Positions 38,017 through 59,818 of a stretch of 64,000 nt of DNA are shown here, piece by piece (within the stretch, counting starts at the first letter, position 1; every line of letters begins with the position of its first letter). The translations under genes were made by a program, and so were the position numbers. Source of the stretch: an uncultured Flavobacteriales bacterium (GTDB lineage: Bacteria; Bacteroidota; Bacteroidia; Flavobacteriales_G; Salibacteraceae). The notes below the pieces were generated by a model. It ran no database searches, was not told the DNA's origin, and saw only the letters and a program-made list of their open reading frames with translations. The stretch covers positions 62,001-126,000 of the forward strand of contig CALSPD010000014.1 in NCBI GenBank assembly GCA_943788145.1. Reading direction: 5' to 3'.

Positions 38017-38471
38017 TCTTTAAGCGCTTTCCCCGCCTCAAACTGACCCTTCCAAACTGTGCCATCAGGGTATTTGATCTTACCCTTGCCATTCATTTTA
38101 CCTCGCTCGAAATGTCCGCGGTAGATTTGACCATTGGGCCATTCCATTTGACCTTTACCGTGCGGATCATCATTCTTCCATCGCCCAAAATATTTACGTC
38201 CATTCGGCCATTCCATTGTTCCCTTTCCATGCCGCATTCCATTTTGCCATCGGCCTTCGTAGTAAATACTGTCCGACCATATCATGGTGCCTTTTCCGCT
38301 AAACTCTCCTTCGAAAATTTCACCATAATACTTAGATCCATTTTCCCAGAAAACGGTATGATATCCATCCGTCAACAGCCGCATATCTTCAGGTTTTGTT
38401 ACCTGAGAATGAACTTGACCAGCAACAAAAACACTCAAACCGACAGTAACAACAATAGACTTTATCTTCAT
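38013..38471 (-). CDS. Exported MORN-repeat protein
   Basis: A 152-residue protein with a signal peptide (VVTVGLSVFVAGQVHSQ) and about five MORN repeats of about 23 residues (for example YYEGRWQNGMRHGKGTMEWPNG, then KYFGRWKNDDPHGKGQMEWPNG). MORN units form an elongated beta-sheet and bind lipids or proteins. The exported location points to an envelope role. It overlaps the upstream head-GIN gene by 4 nt (ATGA), so both are made from one message. Confidence 0.88.
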   Translation of the reverse strand: MKIKSIVVTVGLSVFVAGQVHSQVTKPEDMRLLTDGYHTVFWENGSKYYGEIFEGEFSGKGTMIWSDSIYYEGRWQNGMRHGKGTMEWPNGRKYFGRWKNDDPHGKGQMEWPNGQIYRGHFERGKMNGKGKIKYPDGTVWKGQFEAGKALKD

Positions 38472-39163
38472 TTAATTTGCTTCAATTCCCCCGCCCCACT
38501 TATGTCCTGATTAATGCTTGGACTTCCTTTGTATTTAACTTCACCTGCTCCCGAAATATCGACATTCAATTCGTCCGATACCGACAATTCGACTTCGCTG
38601 GCTCCAGAAATGTCAATATCCGCAGTTTTAGACGCCAAATCAAAAGCGTCAACTTCAGCCGCACCTGAAAGTTCGAGGATTAAATGATCGGCTCGACCCT
38701 TCAACTTCACTTCACCACCTCCACTTAAATCAAGTTCAAACTCATCAACATCAACCGCCATATCGGCTTCAGCTGCCCCAGAAATATCTAAATCGAATTT
38801 TCCAGCTTTCAAAGTTCCTGATGTCTTTACGGTACTCGCACCAGACAAGGAAACGGCCGTCATTGTTTCATAGTAAACAGTGACTATTAGGTCGTCCGTG
38901 TTCAACATTTTGTTTTCAGAGGAAATGATTAATTCTCCTGATTTTACTTCGACTAATATGTGCTCATGAATGTTCTCATCCGTTTCTATGACCACTTTAG
39001 GTTCACCGTGAATGAGCACCACCTCGAACACACCTGATGTACTAATGCGCTCAAATGCTTCTACTTCATGATTCTTGCTGATCACTTTTCCATTGCCCGT
39101 TATCGTTTCTCCACAGGCATTTAAAACGAAACTTAATAAGGTTAGAAGTAAAAGATTTCTCAT
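38468..39163 (-). CDS. Head-GIN (DUF2807) lipoprotein
   Basis: A 231-residue lipoprotein (LLLLTLLSFVLNAC) of the head-GIN/DUF2807 family. The opening ITGNGKVISKNHEVEAFERISTSGVFEVVLIHGE is diagnostic. It is followed by a beta-helix built from repeats such as VSLSGASTVK, LDISGAAEAD, LDLSGGGEVK and DISGASEVE. These proteins are predicted to sit in the periplasm or at the surface; function unknown. A second head-GIN protein lies in the sigma-linked cluster at 55.4 kb. A CRP-type palindrome lies 29 nt upstream. Confidence 0.88.
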   Translation of the reverse strand: MRNLLLLTLLSFVLNACGETITGNGKVISKNHEVEAFERISTSGVFEVVLIHGEPKVVIETDENIHEHILVEVKSGELIISSENKMLNTDDLIVTVYYETMTAVSLSGASTVKTSGTLKAGKFDLDISGAAEADMAVDVDEFELDLSGGGEVKLKGRADHLILELSGAAEVDAFDLASKTADIDISGASEVELSVSDELNVDISGAGEVKYKGSPSINQDISGAGELKQIK

Positions 39164-39191
39164 TTGATGTAGATTTGGTGAGGTTCAAAAG

Positions 39192-50070: not shown

Positions 50071-50499
50071 ATGAGTCAAAAACCGAAGACGATAAAAAAC
50101 GAGGACAGCGTAAGCGACTTTATTGCTGCCATTGAAGACAGTCAAAAGCGCGCTGATAGCCAAGCCATACTCGATTTGATGGAACGCCTTACGGGCTGCA
50201 AAGGCGAAATGTGGGGGCCATCTATTGTTGGTTTTGGCACCTATACCTACAAATATGCTTCCGGACGAGAAGGAGATTGGATGTTGACCGGATTTTCCCC
50301 TCGAAAACAGGCTTTAACACTTTACATCATGAGCGGCTTCAAACGTTATGATGACTTATTACAAAAGTTAGGCAAACACAAAACGGGCAAGTCTTGCCTT
50401 TATGTAAAGCGCCTTGCCGATCTGGATATGGATGTGTTGGAAGAACTCATTTCAGAGTCCGTAATTTGGATGAAGTCGCACAATCATCGACATGCTTAA
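50071..50499 (+). CDS. DUF1801 (YdhG-like) domain protein
   Basis: A 142-residue cytoplasmic protein of the DUF1801 family: RADSQAILDLMERLTGCKGEMWGPSIVGFGTYTYKYASGREGDWMLTGFSPRKQALTLYIMSGF is the conserved core, with SCLYVKRLADLDMDVLEELI at the end. The family is of unknown function and shares the iron-chaperone frataxin-like fold of YdhG. It lies just upstream of the sigma gene and may or may not be co-transcribed. Confidence 0.87.
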   Translation: MSQKPKTIKNEDSVSDFIAAIEDSQKRADSQAILDLMERLTGCKGEMWGPSIVGFGTYTYKYASGREGDWMLTGFSPRKQALTLYIMSGFKRYDDLLQKLGKHKTGKSCLYVKRLADLDMDVLEELISESVIWMKSHNHRHA

Positions 50500-50535: not shown

Positions 50536-51141
50536 TTGAATCCTAGCTTTTCCAATAAAATCGAATTCGAACAGATGTTTCGAGCGCACTACGCACCGCT
50601 GGTTGGCTACGCTGCAAAAATCATTCGAGACCGTGAAAACGCGGCCGATATTGTGCAGCAACTCTTCGTAAACCTTTGGGAAAAGCGAGAATCTATTGAG
50701 GTGGAAGGCAGTTTAAAAAGCTATTTATTGCGCAGCACGCACAATCATTGCTTGAATTTCATCAAGCATGAAAAGGTAAAAAACGAACATGCTAGCCATG
50801 CCTTGGCGACAGAACCAACACACGATTATAGGGATGCATTGGAAACGGAGGAATTTCAACAACGGGTAAAATCTTCCGTTCAAGAACTTCCGAGTCAATG
50901 TCGTAAAATCTTCTTGATGAGTCGTTTACAAGGAAAATAATATCAACAAATAGCCGATGAACTCGATTTAAGCGTCAATACGGTAGAAAACCAAATGGGT
51001 AAGGCATTAAAAACGCTTCGATCATCTTTAAACGTAGAAGCAAAAACAACGCTTCGCATCCTAAAAACAATTTTTTTGGTTCCTCATAGGGGTAAACGTC
51101 TTTTCAATTGTCATGAAATAAGCAATGGAAGCATCAAATGA
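50536..51141 (+). pseudogene. ECF sigma factor (FecI-like), in-frame TAA in region 4
   Basis: A Bacteroidota-type ECF sigma factor. The start is a TTG at 50536, the only codon that keeps region 1.2/2 (FEQMFRAHYAPLVGYAAKII). Region 2 ends NAADIVQQLFVNLWEKRESIEVEGSLKSYLLRSTHNHCLNFIKH. Region 4 begins LPSQCRKIFLMSRLQGK, then TAA (50938-50940), then continues in the same frame as YQQIADELDLSVNTVENQMGKALKTLRSSL, a full helix-turn-helix. No frame change is needed; one base change of TAA (to AAA or TTA, say) would restore it. As read, the sigma lacks promoter -35 recognition. The frame runs to a stop at 51141, overlapping the anti-sigma start. Confidence 0.85.
51087..51114 (+). promoter_or_regulatory. 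Candidate ECF promoter, copy A
   Basis: A 28-bp element beginning TAGGGGTAAA and ending CAATTGTCAT, 10 nt upstream of the anti-sigma ATG (51125) and within the sigma gene's 3' end. A run of seven T ends 9 nt before it. It is identical at 24 of 28 positions to a second copy at 55320-55347. GGGGTAAA would be the -35 and GTC the -10 of an ECF-type promoter. This suggests autoregulation of the anti-sigma gene by the adjacent sigma factor. Confidence 0.65.
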
Positions 51142-52102
51142 TCATATCGACTACGACTTAGCCGCCAAATATTTGGCTGGTGAGTGCGCTCCTGTTGAGG
51201 TTGAGCGTTTCGAAACATGGATTGATGCATCTGATTCGAATCGTGCGGCTTTCGAAGAACTACGCGCCCTTTGGAATGTCGATTTGGAAGAAACCAATGT
51301 TATCGATACGGATGCAGCCTGGCGAACCGTGGATTCAAAAATTGACTTTAGTGAGACCGCTTCCACTAAAACTTCGTTCAAATTTTACCGAATAGCTGCC
51401 GCCATTGTGCTCTTGATGGGTATCGGTGCTGCACTGTGGTGGTCATCGGGCAATGGCAATCGCGTGCTCGAATCAGGTGCTGAAATGGCTACGCTCATAC
51501 TGAAAGATGGCAGTACGGTAACATTAAGTCCACACAGCCGCCTCGAATATCCCGAGACATTTGATGCGCAAACTCGATCAGTCGCGTTAAACGGACAAGC
51601 CTTTTTTGAAATCGCGAAGGATAAGGAACACCCTTTCATCATCGTAACCGATGGTGGCGAAGTCAAAGTCGTAGGAACGGCCTTCGAAGTCAATACCCGA
51701 GATGATAATATGTCCTTGACTGTAGAAGTTGCCGAAGGAATCGTTGAGGTTTCGAATAAAAACTTGAAAAACTCGGCTCGTGTCTCCGCAGGCGAAGTGT
51801 GCTCTATCTCAAAGGCTCAAACCGAAATCGAGGTAACCGATATCGTAGATGCCGCGCCATTTTATTGGAAAGACAAAACCATCAAATTCAGAAGAACGGA
51901 ATTGAAACAGGTCGTTCAAACCCTTCACGATCTCTTGCAACTGGATATTCAACTCGAATCAGATAGCATAGAAGGCTGCGAGTTGACGGTGACTTTCACC
52001 AATGAAAACCCTGAAACCATCCTAGAAATCATCGCCATGACACTCGGGCTAGATTTGACAAAAAATAATGGCGTTTATATGCTTTCAGGTTCAGGCTGTT
52101 AA
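51125..52102 (+). CDS. FecR-family anti-sigma factor
   Basis: A 325-residue inner-membrane protein. The cytoplasmic N-terminus (YDLAAKYLAGECAPVEVERFETWI, the anti-sigma helix bundle with conserved WxxxD-like ALWNVDLEET) is followed by one membrane helix (IAAAIVLLMGIGAALWW). A periplasmic FecR domain comes next (LKDGSTVTLSPHSRLEYPETF, GQAFFEIAKDKEHPFIIVTDGGEVKVVGTAFEVN), then a DUF4974 domain at the end (TELKQVVQTLHDLLQLDIQLE, TVTFTNENPETILEIIAMTLGLDL). It senses a signal through an outer-membrane partner and holds the sigma factor. It is intact, though the sigma is not. The next gene starts 2 nt later. Confidence 0.92.
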   Translation: MEASNDHIDYDLAAKYLAGECAPVEVERFETWIDASDSNRAAFEELRALWNVDLEETNVIDTDAAWRTVDSKIDFSETASTKTSFKFYRIAAAIVLLMGIGAALWWSSGNGNRVLESGAEMATLILKDGSTVTLSPHSRLEYPETFDAQTRSVALNGQAFFEIAKDKEHPFIIVTDGGEVKVVGTAFEVNTRDDNMSLTVEVAEGIVEVSNKNLKNSARVSAGEVCSISKAQTEIEVTDIVDAAPFYWKDKTIKFRRTELKQVVQTLHDLLQLDIQLESDSIEGCELTVTFTNENPETILEIIAMTLGLDLTKNNGVYMLSGSGC

Positions 52103-52104
52103 CC

Positions 52105-54046
52105 ATGCGCTTCCTCCTTTCCATCCTATTTTGTGTTTCTTCTCTAAGCATCAGCGCAGCATGCCTGAATCAGCCCGTAAGTATTTCCTGCTCGAAATGT
52201 TCCCTCGAGGAAGTGCTGGATCGGCTAGAAAGTAAGATAAGTTGTTCCTTCAGTTACAGCTCCGACCAGCTCGACCCCGAGCAACAAATTTCCGTTGACT
52301 TCCGCGAGACTGCACTCATCGACATCCTCAAATCCATAACCAACGAGGAATTCAACATCCAACAGAAAGGTCGCTATGTGTTAATGACAGCTAAAAGGGA
52401 TGACAATACCTCTAAAACCTCAAAAAAGGAATACATCATAGAAGGTTATGTGAAGAATGCGTCAACAGGCGAAATGATTCAAAAAGCCACCGTTTATGCC
52501 GTTGGTAATAAATACAGCGCCCTGACCAACGAAAAGGGTTATTACAAACTAGCACTTAATACGGAAAAGGAATTTGTTGGATTGAGTTACAGCAAACGCG
52601 ACTATTTCGATACCATCATTGTCGTTAAACCGATTGAAAACAAGGTTCGCCAAGACATCATCTTAGACCCGCGAGAGGCAGCGCCCGATAAAATGCCGAT
52701 TCGAACTTCGCTAGCCACCACACCGCGAGAAGTAGAAGAATTGACCATGGTGAAGTTTCTGGTACCTGAACCGCAACGTGACGTTGCCATTAATTTGGAT
52801 TTTCTAGAACAAATCCCCGTTCAGTTTTCGCTCGTGCCAAGTATAGGTACGAACCGATTTTCGAGTGGTATGAAGACAAACGTAGCGTCCATCAATTTAC
52901 TCGCTGGATATAACGCGGCCATCGAAGGTGTTGAGGTTGGCGGCTTGGTGAATATAACCCGAACACACATGCATGGCCTTCAGGCGAGTGGTTTGGGAAA
53001 TATTGTCGGTGGCGAAGTGCGTGGCATTCAAGCCGCGGGACTGTTTAACAACGTTAGAGGCAGTGTTTATGGCGTGCAAGCCGCAGGACTTTACAACATC
53101 GTATTGGACACAGTAAAAGGCGTTCAAGCAGCTGGATTCTTTAACGTGTTGCGCGGAACGAGTCAAGGTGGACAACTTAGTGGCTTTTTAAATGTAGCCA
53201 CCGAAAACATGACCGGATTGCAGGCCGCAGGTTTTTTGAATTACACCAAAAAGGACGTAAAATTCGTACAAGCGGGTGGATTCATGAACGTGGCAGGCAG
53301 CGTTTCTGGAGCGCAGACAGGTGGGTTTGCAAATTTCTGCAAAGGTGAAGTCACGGGAGTACAGGCGGCTGGTTTCATGAATATTGCCGAAACCATAACA
53401 GGCGTTCAAGCCCGCAGGATTCATGAACATAAGTGGTGACGCCAGCAGCCAGATTTCAGGTTTTCTGAACGTAGGTAAAACGATCGATAAAATTCAGGTC
53501 GGTATTTTCAATTTCAGTGATTCAAGTGCATTGAGTATTGGACTGTTTTCCTTTTCGCTAAAAGGCCTAAACCGTTTCGACTTTCACAGCGATGAAATTC
53601 ACCCATATAACATTAGCTATCGCACGGGCAACCAAGCCTTTTACAACATCCTTCAAGTGAGTTATGGGCTCCTATGTAGGGTTGCCAATTTACAGCTTAG
53701 GATATGGCATTGGAACGGAAATCGGCAAGCCAGAAAAACGTGTTCACACCAACCTTGAAGTGTTGGCGCGACAAGTGCGCGATCCTAATAATAAAAGTAC
53801 TCCCTTCAATTTAGACTGGAAGTTTGAACCGAGTCTGAGTGTTCGAATTGGCAAAAAAACGGCCAAGCATTGTTTTCGGACCATCTCTTCATATAATGTT
53901 TTCAAATGGTAACACTGGCCAACACAAACTCAGCCGATGATAAGACCTTTAGGCCACGAAGCTCGTACCCGCCAATTTATGATGCGGTTAGCGGCCCGCT
54001 TGAGGCCGATTTTTGGGTAGGGGCAAAATTTGGCGTTCGGATTTAG
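52105..54046 (+). pseudogene. STN + carboxypeptidase-regulatory + 16-residue-repeat surface protein, four +1 frameshifts
   Basis: Read as one 645-residue protein broken by four extra bases (CCC 53411-53413, GGG 53666-53668, A7 53853-53859, GG 53908-53909); the corrected length is an exact number of codons. Signal peptide 1-19. An STN domain (residues about 25-95; CSLEEVLDRLESKISCSFSYSS, LMTAKRDD) would touch FecR in the periplasm. A CarboxypepD-regulatory-like Ig domain (EGYVKNASTGEMIQKATVYAVG) follows. From about residue 270 come some eleven repeats of 15-16 residues of the form G-x-Q-A-A-G-F-x-N-h, then a C-terminal beta-rich, porin-like domain ending FWVGAKFGVRI. It resembles LA_2272-type surface repeat proteins. 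It probably takes the place of the usual TonB receptor for this sigma/anti-sigma pair. Confidence 0.82.
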
Positions 54047-54128
54047 CCATTTTCCAGACCGCCTCATGCATTGAGTTTACCTTTGTGGAACATTCTCCAT
54101 CATCCAAGCTTCGATAAAGCCGCTATTC

Positions 54129-55301
54129 ATGACCTTCGAACAACTTAAACTTTCCAAAAACCTTCAACAAACGTTAGCTGAGCAGGGTTACAACAAGCCT
54201 TATCCCATACAGGTGCAGGCCATTCCCGCCATTTTACAACGAAAAGATGTATTGGGAATAGCACAAACAGGTTCTGGAAAAACGGCCGGCTATGTGTTGC
54301 CAATTCTGAGTTTACTCGAAAAAGCTGAGTTGGGAAAAAACCGACACATCGATGCGCTTATTGTCGTTCCGACACGCGAGTTAGCCGTTCAAGTTCAAGA
54401 GGTGGTGAAAATTTTCGCACAAGGATTAAATGCCCCGATGAAGTCAATGGCAGTTTTCGGTGGTGTGTCCATCAATCCTCAAATGATTGGCATGCAAGGC
54501 GTTCGCATCTTGGTTGCGACTCCCGGTCGATTGATCGAATTGGTTGAATCAAAAGCCATGAGTCTCGCGGAAATCAAAATGTTGGTTTTGGATGAAGCCG
54601 ATAAAATGCTCAACCTCGGATTTGAAGAGGAAATGAAGAAAATCTTATCGTTTTTACCTAAAAAGCGTCAAAACTTACTCTTTTCAGCCACTCTAAGTCC
54701 AGAATTGAAGGAAATTCAACAAATGATGTTGGACAATCCCGAGGTGATAAAAGTCGAGGCTGAAACCGAAAACATCGAGTTGATTCAACAAACGGCCTAT
54801 CATGTTTTGGATGAAAAGAAAGGACCACTTTTGCGCTATTTGATCTTGTCGGGCAACTTCAATCAAGTGCTCATCTTCACATCATCGGTTTACAAAGCCG
54901 ATCAAGTGGCCGACAAACTCGCTAAACACGGCATTGACGCACGCGCCACCCACAGCAAGAAAAGCCATAAAGCTAGAACAGAGGCCTTGCGAGACTTCAA
55001 GTCAGGAGACCTTCGCGTGTTGGTTGCAACCGATTTGCTTTCACGGGGTATCGACATTGAGTTTTTGCCCTATGTCATCAACTATGAATTGCCACGTTCG
55101 CCAAAAGATTACATCCATCGAATCGGAAGAACGGGTCGGGCCGAATCACCAGGTGAAGCCATTTCGTTTATCACGCCCGAAGATTTACACCATTTTAAAA
55201 TCATACAGAAAAAGATGGGAAAATGGGTGAAACTCACCTATACAGAGGATATGGACCTCACCCCGCCCCCTCCTAAATATACCTTGACCAAAGAAGAATA
55301 A
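54129..55301 (+). CDS. DEAD-box ATP-dependent RNA helicase (RhlE-like)
   Basis: A 390-residue helicase with all motifs: Q motif (YPIQVQAIPAI), motif I AQTGSGKT, Ia VPTRELAVQV, II DEADKML, III SATL, IV (QVLIFTSSVYKADQV), V (VLVATDLLSRGIDIE) and VI (YIHRIGRTGRA). The short Lys/Pro-poor C-terminus fits the RhlE group used in ribosome assembly and cold response. It is intact and lies between two members of the repeat-protein cluster, with which it has no evident link. Its TAA stop is directly followed by the T-run of promoter copy B. Confidence 0.93.
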   Translation: MTFEQLKLSKNLQQTLAEQGYNKPYPIQVQAIPAILQRKDVLGIAQTGSGKTAGYVLPILSLLEKAELGKNRHIDALIVVPTRELAVQVQEVVKIFAQGLNAPMKSMAVFGGVSINPQMIGMQGVRILVATPGRLIELVESKAMSLAEIKMLVLDEADKMLNLGFEEEMKKILSFLPKKRQNLLFSATLSPELKEIQQMMLDNPEVIKVEAETENIELIQQTAYHVLDEKKGPLLRYLILSGNFNQVLIFTSSVYKADQVADKLAKHGIDARATHSKKSHKARTEALRDFKSGDLRVLVATDLLSRGIDIEFLPYVINYELPRSPKDYIHRIGRTGRAESPGEAISFITPEDLHHFKIIQKKMGKWVKLTYTEDMDLTPPPPKYTLTKEE

Positions 55302-55319
55302 GTTTTTTTTCAGATCGCG

Positions 55320-55347
55320 TAGGGGTAAATGATTTTACAATTGTCAT
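55320..55347 (+). promoter_or_regulatory. Candidate ECF promoter, copy B
   Basis: Begins TAGGGGTAAA and ends CAATTGTCAT, 20 nt before the head-GIN ATG (55368). A run of eight T (55303-55310) ends 9 nt before it, the same distance as in copy A. It matches copy A in 24 of 28 positions. It likely drives the head-GIN, second repeat-protein and TonB-receptor genes, which have no other such element between them. Confidence 0.65.
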
Positions 55348-55367: not shown

Positions 55368-56105
55368 ATGAAAACTTCAAACACCCTACTCTTTTCCATC
55401 GCACTCAGCGCACTTGCTTTAGCATCCACTTCATGCGGTAAAGACCACTGGCCAAATTGCATCAAGGCCAACAAGAAAAACGCCACTGAAACTCGAAGCC
55501 TTGAAAACTTTACAGAAATTCAGTTGGACGGCAGCGGTGATGTCTATTTATATCAACTCACCGATTCTTCCCTGCCTACGGTCGAAATTGAAACCAGTGA
55601 AAATGTTATGGATCGCGTGACTACTGAGGTTAAAGGAAACAAATTGGTCTTATCTACCGAATGCATTCGTGGCACTTACGACTTAACCTACACCATTCGC
55701 GTTGCCGACTTAAGCAAAGTGAAAATATCCGGATCGGGAAACGTAACTACCATGACTCCATTCAACTTGAACGATGTCAATCTTGAAATTGACGGCAGTG
55801 GTAACATGGATTTTGAAACAGACGCGACAAATGTAGCCTGCCATATCAGTGGCAGCGGAAATATCGAATTGGACGGAACGTGCGATGACCTCGATCTTGA
55901 AATTGACGGAAGCGGAGACATTCACGCCTTCGACATGCCAACAACCGATTGCTTCATCAACATCAGCGGAAGTGGAAACTGTGAGGTTTATGTGAACGGG
56001 ATTCTGAACGTCACCGTGAGCGGAAGTGGCGATGTCATTTATGACGGAACTCCAACCGAATTCAGTACAAACAGCAGCGGATCCGGAACGGTAAGAAAGC
56101 GCTAA
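55368..56105 (+). CDS. Head-GIN (DUF2807) lipoprotein
   Basis: A 245-residue lipoprotein (SIALSALALASTSC) of the head-GIN/DUF2807 family. The opening TETRSLENFTEIQLDGSGDVYLYQ is typical and the body is a beta-helix of short repeats with ISGSGN or IDGSGD turns (VKISGSGNVTT, CHISGSGNIELDG, LEIDGSGDIHAF). Intact. First gene after promoter copy B, so it is probably a main output of the sigma factor. It is a distant paralogue of the head-GIN protein at 38.5 kb. Function unknown, possibly a structural or binding protein at the surface. Confidence 0.88.
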   Translation: MKTSNTLLFSIALSALALASTSCGKDHWPNCIKANKKNATETRSLENFTEIQLDGSGDVYLYQLTDSSLPTVEIETSENVMDRVTTEVKGNKLVLSTECIRGTYDLTYTIRVADLSKVKISGSGNVTTMTPFNLNDVNLEIDGSGNMDFETDATNVACHISGSGNIELDGTCDDLDLEIDGSGDIHAFDMPTTDCFINISGSGNCEVYVNGILNVTVSGSGDVIYDGTPTEFSTNSSGSGTVRKR

Positions 56106-56170: not shown

Positions 56171-57453
56171 ATGAAAACAAGGATATTGACCTTGCTGGCA
56201 ATCGTATTGCCTTTATTTTCCAGTATTTACGCCAACGAATCTGATAGTATAAAGACGAAAGACAGCGTTAGTACTATGCCCTTTCAATTCACCTTCATCT
56301 CGCCCATCGGCACCAATGGATTGTTGAGTTCAAAAACAACAAATTACTTGTCCGTCAATTTGATTGCAGGATATAACGGAGGCGTCAATGGCGTTGAAGT
56401 GGGAGGTTTTGCCAATGTGTTGGAATACGACATGAAGGGCAGCCAGTTTGCCGGATTTGCCAACGTAGTTCGTGGTAATGTACAAGGACTTCAGGCGGCA
56501 GGATTTTCAAACTATGCCCATGGAAACACAGACGGAATCATGCTGGCTGGGTTTACCAATCACAGCAATAAATCGTCCAACTCCTTCCAAGCCGCTGGAT
56601 TCTCCAATCAAGTATTGGGTTCGGTGAAAGGGGCGCAACTGGCTGGTTTCGCAAACTTTTGTCAAGATAGCTTGATTGGTTTTCAGGCGGCTGGATACGC
56701 CAATTATTCAGGCGATAAAACCTTGGCCATTCAAGCCGCTGGGTTTAGTAATACAGCCAAAGGCGATGTGACAGGCTCACAGATAGCAGGATTCGGTAAC
56801 GTAGCTGTGGGCGACCTACAGGGGAGTCAAATCGCTGGGTTCGGAAACGCTGCAAAAGATGTTGATGGCGCACAAATCAGTGGTTTTATCAATTTGGCCA
56901 AAACCGTTTCGGGAACACAAATCAGCCTCATCAATGTTGCCGACTCCTTTTCGCATGGTGTGCCAGTCGGATTCATCAGTTTTGTTCGATCGGGTTACCG
57001 CAATTATTCCTTTGGTGTGAACGAACTCGCGTGGGCAGAATTTCAATACCGAACAGGCACAGATCGCTTGCACAATGTATTCGCTTTAGCCCTCAACCCC
57101 ATTCCAAATACATCGAGCTGGGCATTTGGTTACGGACTTGGATCGAAGGTGTTGGACACAGAAAATCGGATGTGTTAATCGATTTGATGTCTTATCAAGT
57201 GCAAGAAAAAGAACTGTTCACCATTGCGTACAATGCTCTATACCGATTCAGCGCGCGATACGAATACCATCCTTCGGCTCAACGGTTTGCCATCTGGGGC
57301 GGACCATCGCTCAATTTACATCAAAGTTCATACACGCGAGGCGATGGAACTGCCTTCACCAGTAAGCTTTCACCCTACTCCTTACTAGAAGACAAAGGAA
57401 CTTATGTTCATTCAGAATTTTGGGTAGGCGCCCAAATCGGAGTGAGTTTCTAA
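56171..57453 (+). pseudogene. 16-residue-repeat surface protein with porin-like C-terminus, one frameshift
   Basis: A paralogue of the gene at 52105 without the STN and regulatory domains. A signal peptide (ILTLLAIVLPLFSSIYA) is followed by FTFISPIGTNGLLSSKTTNYLSVNLIAGYNGGVNGVEVGGFANV, a segment closely matching the paralogue. About twelve repeats follow (GLQAAGFSNYAHGNTD, GAQLAGFANFCQDSLI, GSQIAGFGNVAVGDLQ). The C-terminal beta-rich part (FQYRTGTDRLHNVF) loses frame near 57145-57155; a 1-nt deletion or 2-nt insertion there would explain it. The second frame continues HRKSDVLIDLMSYQVQEKELFTIAYNAL and ends FWVGAQIGVSF, like the paralogue. Corrected about 427 residues. Confidence 0.8.
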
Positions 57454-57478: not shown

Positions 57479-59818
57479 ATGAAAACACTACTTACCTCTT
57501 TGATCTTGCTATGCGCTTTCGTCAGCGTTTCGCAAGAAAATCAGCCCACGCAAACGGTCCGCGGCATCATCGTAGATCAGCAGTCTGAATCGCCCCTGAT
57601 TGGTGCTAATGTTGTCGTCATGGGCAGCGATCCCTTCCTTGGCGCTAGTACCGACCTTGACGGTAATTTCCGATTGGAAAATGTACCAACTGGACGACAA
57701 ACCTTACGCATTACCTATCTTGGATACGAGCCGCGAGAAATGCCTAACATGCTAGTCAATTCGGGCAAGGAAATGATTCTATCCATCGGTTTACAAGAGT
57801 CTTTCCAGTCGCTGGCAGAAGTAGTGATCGATGGCGAAGCCGAACGCGGTGAAAACATCAATAAAATGGCCACAGTCAGTGCGCGAACATTCTCAGTAGA
57901 AGAAACAAAACGCTATGCTGGTTCCATAGACGATCCTGCGCGTATGGCATCGAGCTATGCAGGTGTGGGTGTGGGCGTAGTAGATGGGAATAACGACCTG
58001 GTCATTCGAGGCAATTCTCCACGAGGCATGCTTTGGCGTATGGAAGGTCTAGAAATTCCCAACCCTAACCATTTTAGTTCGCAAGGCGCCAGTGGTGGAC
58101 CCATTTCTATGCTCAGCACAAACATGATGGCAAATTCTGAGTTCTTCACAGGTGCTTTCCCTGCCGAATATGGAAATGCCTATTCGGGCATTTTCGACAT
58201 CAATTTGCGCAAGGGCAACAACGAACAACGGGAATACACATTGGGGATAGGTATTCTAGGCACAGACTTGGCGGTTGAAGGGCCGTTCAGCAAAAACTAC
58301 AAAGGATCGTATTTGGTCAACTATCGCTACTCTACCCTGTCCGTGTTTAGCTTGGTAGGATTGGATATTGTTGGTGACGTCATTCCAAAGTTTCAGGACT
58401 TGAGCTACAACTTCAACCTCCCCGCAGGAAAAGCTGGAACCTTCAGCATTTTCGGGGTTTTGGGTAATGGGGTCGCCACCGAAGCCTGGGAATGGCAAGG
58501 CTTGAAATACGATGATATTTACACCACCAACATGGGCGTCACAGGGTTGAAACATACTTACCTCTTAGGTGAAAAAACCTTGATCAAAACCACCATAGCA
58601 GCGATGGGAACCGAGCGTAAATACCATGCCGACACCTACGATACAAACGATGTTTTTGTGCGAACCGACTATGAGTCTAAAATGCAAGACATGGCCATCA
58701 GAGCGAATACCACATTGAATCACAAATTCAACTCAAGACACTCGCTGCGATTGGGAGCAACTTACAACAAGCTCTTTTACGATTTCTTCGAAGAGTATTA
58801 TCACAGTGAGTTGAACAAAATGATCCGCGATCAAGACGATGCCGGCAATGCCGACCGCTTTGAAAGCTTTGCGCAATGGCAGTTTCGAGCCACAGAAAAA
58901 CTGACCTTAAACACGGGGCTACACCAGACCTGCTTCAACCTGAATCAACAAAATGTCATCGAACCGCGGGCTGGGGCTCGCTATGCACTTGGGCGTTCAA
59001 AATGGATCAATGCAGGATTTGGCATACACAGTTCAACCCACGATTTGTCGGTGTATAGCGCCAAAGCTACCTTGGCCGATGGCAGCACCTATCAGCCGAA
59101 TAAAAAGCTCGGTATGACTCGCGCTGCACACTATGTGTTGGGCTATGAACAAATGATAACGCCAAGCCTTCGAACAAAGGCGGAAGTGTATTATCAAAGC
59201 TTGTTTGATGTGCCCATCATCGACTCTGCCAACAGCAGTATATCGGGCATAAATTCTTACGATGGTTATGCCGATGTACCGATGAAAAACAATGGCACGG
59301 GTTACAATTATGGCGCTGAGCTTACCATAGAGAAATACTTCACCAACCAATGGTTTATGATGGTAACATCATCTGTCTATCAATCGAAATATGTGGCTGG
59401 CGATGGTAAGGAGCGCAACACGATGTGGAATGGCAACTATGTGAACAATTTCCAAGGCGGCAAGGAGTTTAACCTCCGCAAACCCGGTCGAGTCATCAGC
59501 GTAAGCTAAAAATTGGTGTGGGCTGGCGGTCAGCGCTATACACCTATTTTGCTAAGCGAGTCGCAGGAAGCAGGATACACCGTCCGCGACAACAACAAAA
59601 TATTTGATGAAAAAATGCCCGACTTTCTGCGACTTGATGCGCAGCTCACTTACCGCATAGATCGGCCTAAAACCACACATTCCTTTAAGATTGATGTGCA
59701 AAATGCGACCAATCGGCAGAACTATTTCAACGAGTATTACAACTCCGAAACACAAAAAATTGAACGCGCAACGCTTTTAGGGATATTACCTATCATGACG
59801 TACAAGGTGCAGTTCTGA
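57479..59818 (+). pseudogene. TonB-dependent outer-membrane receptor, in-frame TAA near the end
   Basis: A 779-codon frame with one in-frame TAA at 59507-59509. Signal peptide 1-18. A CarboxypepD-regulatory-like domain follows (TVRGIIVDQQSESPLIGANVVVMGSDPFLGASTDLDGNF, GRQTLRITYLGYEPRE), then a plug (ARMASSYAGVGVGVVDGNNDLVIRGNSPRGMLWRMEGLEIPNPNHF, EFFTGAFPAEYGNAYSGIFDINLRKG) and a beta-barrel. After GRVISVS the TAA interrupts; the same frame goes on KLVWAGGQRYTPILLSESQ to a C-terminal strand TYKVQF. As read, the barrel lacks its last five or so strands and would not insert. No SusD partner. Probably under promoter copy B. Substrate unknown. Confidence 0.88.

Follow-up and report, generated by a model that had tools for sequence, protein, structure and literature searches.

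Two copies of a predicted ECF promoter at a FecI/FecR-type sigma factor locus of an uncultured Flavobacteriales bacterium and their counterparts across Bacteroidota

Two promoters predicted for one sigma factor

A 64,000-nucleotide stretch of DNA from an uncultured Flavobacteriales bacterium (GCA_943788145.1, contig CALSPD010000014.1; the whole stretch is called the window here) carries two near-identical 28-bp elements, which are very probably promoters of a single FecI-like (TIGR02985) extracytoplasmic function (ECF) sigma factor of Bacteroidota, with a -35 box TAGGGGTA and a -10 box TTGTC that stand 13 nt apart. By comparison with other genomes, the promoter pair and its predicted regulon can be regarded as a real FecI/FecR-type system whose promoter word extends across the phylum and whose junction is unusual in having a promoter inside the sigma gene. 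Promoter 1 (51087-51114, forward strand like all features below unless stated; TAGGGGTAAACGTCTTTTCAATTGTCAT; GTC at 51110-51112) sits in the 3' end of the sigma frame. Promoter 2 (55320-55347, TAGGGGTAAATGATTTTACAATTGTCAT) has the same boxes, is intergenic, and is followed 20 nt on by the ATG of a head-GIN gene. Both were placed from the sequence and from relatives.

An initial annotation of this DNA had described the pair, and most of its description stands. The copies are equal at 24 of 28 positions, its coordinates are right, and a run of 7 T (51071-51077) or 8 T (55303-55310) ends exactly 9 nt before each copy; these tracts resemble UP elements, and the same region is A/T-rich in the family sites. 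The spacing of about 16 nt proposed between GGGGTAAA and GTC has to be corrected, as the actual spacer is 13 nt and a search with 14-18 nt gave no match. Promoter 1 had been placed ahead of the anti-sigma gene, which is right as to its position at the junction, but the site is not simply intergenic, since the sigma frame overruns it.

The window holds no third copy, as had been claimed: the pattern TAGGGGTAAA-N8-CAATTGTCAT, at up to three mismatches, matches only these two sites, compared to 0 matches in 100 dinucleotide shuffles. This pattern was derived from both copies, so the independent tests come from other genomes. Random copies across the genome, which had been named as one sign against a promoter, are not seen in the source assembly (2.89 Mb, 86.6% complete, called G000 among the family genomes), where TAGGGGTA-N13-TTGTC has two exact sites only, both in the window, compared to one in the reversed control. 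When the version ending in TTGTCAT is allowed up to two mismatches, there are six matches (two exact, which are the same two window sites, one with one mismatch, and three with two) against six in the reversed control, so only the exact sites are distinct. A one-mismatch match of the first pattern (G000:C2:101770) lies within a coding frame, presumably that of ATP synthase gamma, and was set down to chance.

Three mismatched sites were inspected, two with one mismatch (L179, L191) and one with two (L181), the last of which lies within an opposite-strand frame. The L179 site (G000:C16:79695) has a run of ten T that ends 9 nt upstream and doubles as the tail of a terminator-like hairpin, and about 75 nt downstream of it is a gene that we take to encode an FKBP-type isomerase. 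This site is a possible third target of the promoter system; no one-mismatch site of its kind was found in the relatives G014 or G021.

Conservation in the family

The family sample comprises 35 genomes, 12 of which have a sigma orthologue (best E 6e-27 or lower). At the sigma/anti-sigma junction, GGGG...TGTC is found with the same spacing in 10 of these 12 (G000, G021, G014, G030, G004, G009, G001, G008, G034, and G027); the G009 junction reads TGGGGGTT, and its spacing fits by the last four of five Gs. When the 35 genomes were searched for GGGGTAAA-N11-TTGTC, copies with a near-equal spacer were seen in G021, which belongs to the same genus, and in G030 of another genus, both at the junction. 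Four matches of a first, looser pattern (L004, L005, L007, and L010) were discounted, as they lie within unrelated frames or run across them. Another site is present before head-GIN, repeat-protein, or TonB genes in 10 of the 12 genomes, and those second sites that fall in the locus itself precede head-GIN (G021, G014, G030), TonB (G014, G009), or a repeat gene (G001).

The exact pattern has 19 sites in 11 of the 35 genomes, compared to four for the reversed control. Twelve of the 19 are in the orthologous locus, and five more are elsewhere, upstream of genes of the head-GIN, repeat, or TonB type, namely a repeat gene with TonB behind it (G004), TonB (G008), head-GIN (G027 and G034), and a distant TonB-type gene with 27-28% identity (G034). 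The exact TTGTCAT sites of G014, G021, and G030 (three, two, and two) are all within the locus, and G030 has a one-mismatch site before a TonB gene elsewhere, whose product is 43-49% identical to the locus receptors of G014 and G009. Sites before the same kinds of genes in other parts of the genome suggest that the element follows these genes when they are moved. Across four genomes, sites with up to two mismatches number 28, compared to 27 in the reversed control, and two-mismatch sites were therefore left unused. The ECF-promoter reading is thus borne out by sites that are kept beside the same genes in relatives, with few elsewhere.

The gene on the 5' side of head-GIN varies while the site is constant: it is a DEAD-box helicase gene in the window, another frame in G021, and the STN-repeat gene in G014 and G030, where head-GIN with its site lies directly 3' of that gene. 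No DEAD-box match at E 1e-4 was found in the locus of G021, G014, or G030. The proposal of one regulon is therefore supported as far as the sites are kept before the same kinds of genes in relatives, but the helicase between the two sites of the window is not a constant member.

Scan of the phylum

A wider scan for T5-N8..12-TAGGGGTA-N13-TTGTCAT over 84,980 species genomes returned 102 stretches, 95 of them from Bacteroidota by taxonomy, compared to about two matches expected by chance (our own estimate, assuming equal base use). These stretches hold 118 core sites; the downstream gene was taken as the best open reading frame (ORF) starting between 10 nt before and 260 nt after the site end, and records equal to family genomes are included in the tallies. 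By blastp clusters, the downstream gene is a TIGR02985 sigma gene at 21 sites, a member of the GxQxAGxxN repeat cluster at 20, head-GIN at 17, FecR at 14, and a TonB/carboxypeptidase-regulatory gene at 10. An enrichment before surface-protein genes had been foreseen for a search of this and related genomes; 82 of the 118 scan sites precede sigma, repeat, head-GIN, FecR, or TonB genes, and 17 of the 19 family sites are in the locus or before the same kinds of genes.

Pfam and NCBIfam tallies cover 115 of the 118 downstream proteins (at least 60 aa; the ORFs of 9, 16, and 33 aa at L122, L159, and L123 were dropped), and Pfam gives 21 sigma, 17 DUF2807, 13 FecR, and 10 carboxypeptidase-regulatory proteins. 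In the repeat cluster, the word GxQx(A/S/T/G)GxxN occurs at least once in 19 of 20 proteins and at least twice in 18 of 20.

Some stretches were taken as chance matches. Those from Omnitrophota, Endozoicomonas, and Helicobacter were judged by gene content alone. Three Bacillota stretches from rumen or gut (L099, L105, and L164) have a common site within the end of another frame, with a dapH-type gene about 105 nt further on; they count as one chance match, a call made from gene content only. The record of L148 (Glaciecola amylolytica CP034120, 2847-2891) is a gammaproteobacterial chromosome, and its site and head-GIN gene strongly resemble those of the Flavobacteriales record L082; transfer or contamination could account for this.

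Promoter anatomy and predicted start

Boxes at fixed spacing with a GTC-type -10 are shared by the family sites (19) and the distinct scan sites (116). Because the search patterns prescribed both the letters of the boxes and their distance, the support for an ECF promoter comes from where the sites lie. The 19 family sites were not chosen for their A/T content, which, counted back from TAGGGG, is 89-100% at positions -10 to -17, 74-89% at -18 to -24, 37-53% at -1 to -5, 74-79% at -6 and -7, and about 50% at -8 and -9.

Nine nucleotides past the C of GTC, an A is present in 77% of 135 pooled sites (with some duplicates), and this A is likely to be the start of transcription. RNA from promoter 1 is predicted to start at about 51120-51122. 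In the window, the ATG of the anti-sigma gene is 12 nt past the GTC, which means that its predicted leader is only about 3-5 nt; the leader of head-GIN would be about 14 nt. Of the 14 FecR genes behind scan sites, 10 have their start codon 8-14 nt past the site end.

The sigma clade and its two wirings

The sites keep company with one group of sigma factors. A tree was built from 64 of 69 sigma-like ORFs, leaving out L014 (the window's own broken copy), two L028 rows, and the duplicates L102 and L138, and sites were tabulated with a looser pattern, TAGGGG(T/A/G)(T/A/G)-N13-(T/G)TGTC. A branch with support 99/97, the bootstrap being not fully settled, has all 43 site-adjacent sigmas on the same side. 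Seven further sigmas are on that side, three with a variant junction (L018, L020, L021), three whose stretch has a site in another place (L092, L109, L156), and one with none (L025), and across the branch are 14 site-less paralogues, the best matches from family genomes without an orthologue. Nearly all sigmas with sites have a region-4 helix of the KTVE(N/I)(Q/H)(M/I) type. The conservation of the sites, their gene company, and the sigma clade all come directly from the comparison of genomes.

These sigmas also have a strongly hydrophobic stretch in their last 30 residues, seen in 42 of 43 site-adjacent sigmas compared to 1 of 16 paralogue rows. Examples of such tails after region 4 are YLPLFLIFMNNWMP and, in G021, WFLIGVNVFSIVMK; the rows concerned are the window (50536-51117), L013, L015-L024, and L074-L175. 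The tail perhaps serves contact with the membrane or the anti-sigma factor.

At the junction, the promoter is often tied to the end of the sigma gene, a point that the initial annotation had missed. Among 21 distinct junction loci, the site lies within the sigma frame in six, the sigma gene has exactly the TAG of the -35 box as its stop codon in eight (L022, L023, L088, L121, L128, L132, L160, and L161), the site is at most 10 nt past the sigma stop in three, and it is further off in four. This means that in 14 of the 21 the promoter is within the sigma 3' end or shares its stop. In the window the sigma frame spans promoter 1, and in G021, G014, and G030 the site codes in frame for part of sigma.

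A site stands before the sigma gene in 22 rows and at the junction in 23 (21 without two duplicates), and none of the 69 rows has both. Marinoscillum sp. MHG1-6 (L088) has the junction arrangement, and Algoriphagus zhangzhouensis (L089) and Pseudochryseolinea flava (L150) have the site ahead of sigma. We read these as two wirings, one in which sigma would activate itself and another in which feedback would act on the anti-sigma alone; a promoter within the sigma end would make the anti-sigma mRNA almost leaderless and confine sigma's feedback to its inhibitor. In a bolder reading, to which we give an even chance, this could be a Bacteroidota-wide envelope-stress system with a single sigma clade and promoter word, a constant set of members, and two wirings that exclude each other. 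The members would be the anti-sigma, an STN-like small-barrel repeat sensor, and head-GIN, surface-repeat, and TonB proteins; the promoter would stand before sigma, or its -35 box would double as sigma stop or tail codons, and the junction type would act as a pulse generator.

Genes of the locus

The ECF sigma gene region (TIGR02985/FecI-like, 50536-51117, from profile matches and tblastn) is interrupted, and its frame continues over promoter 1. Sigma70_r2 is in 50536-50937 and Sigma70_r4_2 in 50941-51078; frame reading and tblastn put the breaks at an in-frame TAA (50938-50940) and a frame shift near 51075. The first piece reaches 122.6 bits with TIGR02985, under the cut-off of 126.4 because it is truncated, compared to 162.8 (P0001) and 171.8 for intact relatives. 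Next to it is an intact FecR-type anti-sigma gene (51125-52102), whose matches to PF04773 (E 4.2e-17) and PF16344 (E 2.3e-08) both exceed the cut-off.

The third gene (52105-53910) encodes, in broken frames, a protein with an STN-like region, a carboxypeptidase-regulatory domain, GxQxAGxxN repeats, and C-terminal strands, as judged by profiles, tblastn, and a model of the G014 protein. Its PF13715 (28.2 bits, cut-off 32.2) and PF07660 STN (18.6 bits, cut-off 28.4) matches are sub-threshold, while the LA_2272 repeat model NF047436, of a family presumably named after a Leptospira gene, gives 41.8 bits (cut-off 25). Breaks lie near 53409, 53668, and 53848, with one stop in addition (tblastn). A DEAD-box helicase gene (54129-55301, PF00270, E 4.2e-45) stands between the promoters as a bystander.

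Behind promoter 2 are the intact head-GIN (DUF2807) gene (55368-56105, PF10988, E 2.3e-43), a second GxQxAGxxN repeat protein gene of the LA_2272 type (56171-57450; NF047436, 25.5 bits, cut-off 25), with a frame shift near 57164 by tblastn, and a TonB-dependent receptor gene with a carboxypeptidase-regulatory domain (57479-59818; PF13715, E 6.4e-17; limits from ORF ends and tblastn), with an in-frame stop at 59507-59509. The receptor's Plug match (E 7e-4) is under the cut-off, and its piece 57479-59509 has no STN match at E up to 0.001. Open frames were found for the locus genes present in G014 and G030; in G021, the anti-sigma and the second repeat gene are split.

Alternative explanations

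A chance likeness of two unrelated sites deserves practically no credence. Nothing speaks for it besides the few copies in the genome itself, and it is refuted by the empty shuffles and by the conservation of the same places in other genera. The 28-bp element could also be an operator for a repressor or a two-component regulator, or an RNA element, as a promoter and an operator cannot be told apart when only letters are compared; the two boxes at fixed spacing, the GTC -10, the upstream A/T tract, and the one sigma clade as companion, with 21 sites directly before a sigma gene, make this a quite improbable account. It could be argued, too, that copy 1 is conserved as code for the hydrophobic sigma tail and that copy 2 is a coincidence or duplication, since in G021, G014, and G030 the site encodes, in frame, related sigma tails and such tails are general in the clade. 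However, the copies before head-GIN, repeat, and TonB genes, copy 2 included, are not sigma code, which rules out tail coding as the sole cause of conservation; also, the G004 site is past the sigma stop, and the TAG is itself the stop in 8 of the 21 junction loci. Inside the boxes, third codon positions (ATA/GTA, GGG, GTA, ATT/GTT, GTC) are equal in three intact relatives, and three of the four codons between the boxes differ, two of them at the third position, a weak comparison of three sequences. This tail-code account is extremely improbable.

Of course, several findings weigh against reading the copies as promoters of one regulon under one sigma factor. The junctions of G002 and G003 have only GGGGAAAA-N13-GTA and no second site by the patterns used, and no site accompanies L025 of G026, a sigma that belongs to the clade but is more distant (E 9e-22). 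One family site (G012) stands before an unrelated small lipoprotein-like gene, and another (G006) precedes a mere fragment resembling the C-terminal end of a receptor. In the scan, 36 of 118 sites are outside the five gene types, namely 13 before outer-membrane barrel genes (in groups of seven and six), the three of the Bacillota dapH locus, and 20 single cases; many stretches are from close relatives, so the counts are not independent. In the window itself, sigma and three target genes (STN-repeat, second repeat, and TonB) are interrupted in the assembly, and a near-full-length sigma orthologue is present in only 3 of 13 same-genus genomes, the source included and several of them incomplete, which makes its loss plausible.

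The system may be decaying in this strain, its sigma dead and its sites recent relics or read by another sigma, an explanation that we consider somewhat doubtful. Between 50.5 and 59.8 kb, breaks affect four of the six regulon genes (the anti-sigma and head-GIN being intact by tblastn), compared to one visibly split gene, relative to G021, between 29.7 and 48 kb, and near-full-length sigma is missing in the other 10 same-genus genomes, two of which keep fragments. On the other hand, both sites are still at consensus beside the intact anti-sigma and head-GIN genes, and G021 likewise has split genes in its locus. The assembly is 86.6% complete, so the breaks may be assembly errors; decay, phase variation, and assembly error are all candidates for the pile-up. 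The claim that the sigma factor at 50.5 kb runs the regulon thus applies to relatives in which the genes are intact, while for the source strain, with its interrupted gene, it is unproven.

Proposed mechanism

For the promoter pair as predicted here, we infer a sequence of events that covers sigma binding, start sites, operon extents, the release mechanism, STN signalling, and feedback. A surface signal would reach the periplasmic part of the FecR-type anti-sigma, probably via the STN-like domain of the adjoining repeat protein, and the sigma factor would be released and join RNA polymerase. From the promoter in the sigma 3' end, the holoenzyme would then produce an almost leaderless mRNA for the anti-sigma and the STN-repeat protein, and from promoter 2 an mRNA for head-GIN, repeat protein, and TonB receptor, with the A/T tract about 9 nt upstream possibly acting as an UP element. 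Sigma would increase its inhibitor and effectors rather than itself, which would amount to negative feedback.

The candidate sensor, the STN-repeat protein, was modeled with AlphaFold2 in its G014 form (mean predicted local distance difference test score 80.8, predicted template modeling [TM] score 0.59). Residues 25-97 have an STN-like order of strands and helices, with a weak N0 match (4ar0, E 0.12), and the carboxypeptidase-regulatory domain is clear (5aq0_A, TM 0.77 by target). The model also contains an extended series of two-strand repeats and C-terminal strands with a weak likeness to small barrels (OprF N-terminal domain, E 0.03). STN profiles gave no match in the repeat proteins of three relatives. 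Judging by this model, the protein could pass a surface signal to FecR.

Relation to known systems

By comparison, the locus has the marks of a FecI/FecR-type system: a FecI-like sigma in the intact relatives, an adjoining FecR, and a predicted sigma-dependent promoter before the targets. Like E. coli FecI/FecR/FecA, it pairs a FecI-like ECF sigma with a FecR-type anti-sigma, a TonB-dependent receptor, and an ECF-type promoter. It differs in that the anti-sigma gene would have its own ECF promoter in the end of the sigma gene and in that the STN-like domain, if real, is on the repeat protein and not on the TonB receptor. The fecIR genes of E. coli are described as not autoregulated (PMC9249621). 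The ECF pairs of Bacteroides polysaccharide loci likewise set a sigma and a membrane anti-sigma beside TonB-linked outer-membrane genes (PMC3878776); here, in contrast, Pfam shows no SusD or glycosidase model in 10 proteins or pieces between 50.5 and 59.8 kb. That comparative study left the prediction of ECF promoters open as "a challenging task" (PMC3878776), whereas the promoter described here was derived from comparison.

Other systems come close in single features. In Flavobacterium psychrophilum, motif SM6 is of the ECF type, has mapped starts, and is also found before a sigma/anti-sigma pair (PMC9723704); it differs in its CGT box at -10 and its type IX secretion genes, and the available part of its description gives no GGGGTA -35. 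The FecI/FecR-like pair LIC12757/LIC12756 of Leptospira has an autoregulated promoter (PMC13118517), which, unlike promoter 1, is reported as the sigma gene's own, in another phylum. The Das1/Dma1 and Dma2 systems of B. thetaiotaomicron are also Bacteroidota sigma/anti-sigma pairs that act on the envelope (PMC13088901, PMC12596196), but Dma is presented as a dual membrane-spanning anti-sigma, and the available part of that account describes no FecR/DUF2807 or native promoter motif (PMC13088901). Members of Bacteroidota can have many ECF sigma factors, with 50 credited to B. thetaiotaomicron; for one of these, the same 2025 study gives a motif that is not significant (PMC12596196). No published description of this promoter or regulon was recognized in the literature searched, which excluded the group motifs of the main ECF classification.

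The ECF promoters of Bacteroidota are poorly known. In this case, sequence comparison over the whole phylum yields a sigma clade together with its predicted promoter and targets. The head-GIN and GxQxAGxxN surface-repeat proteins gain a likely regulator, and the two wirings offer natural variants for testing the design of the feedback.

Neighboring genes

A second head-GIN-like gene is found at 38468-39184 on the reverse strand, with no exact promoter site before it. Its relative in G021 shares 53% identity with it and, over 240 aa, 30% with the window's protein at 55368. Upstream of sigma, a small gene (50071-50499) has no NCBIfam match; it also adjoins sigma in G021, where it is 72% identical.

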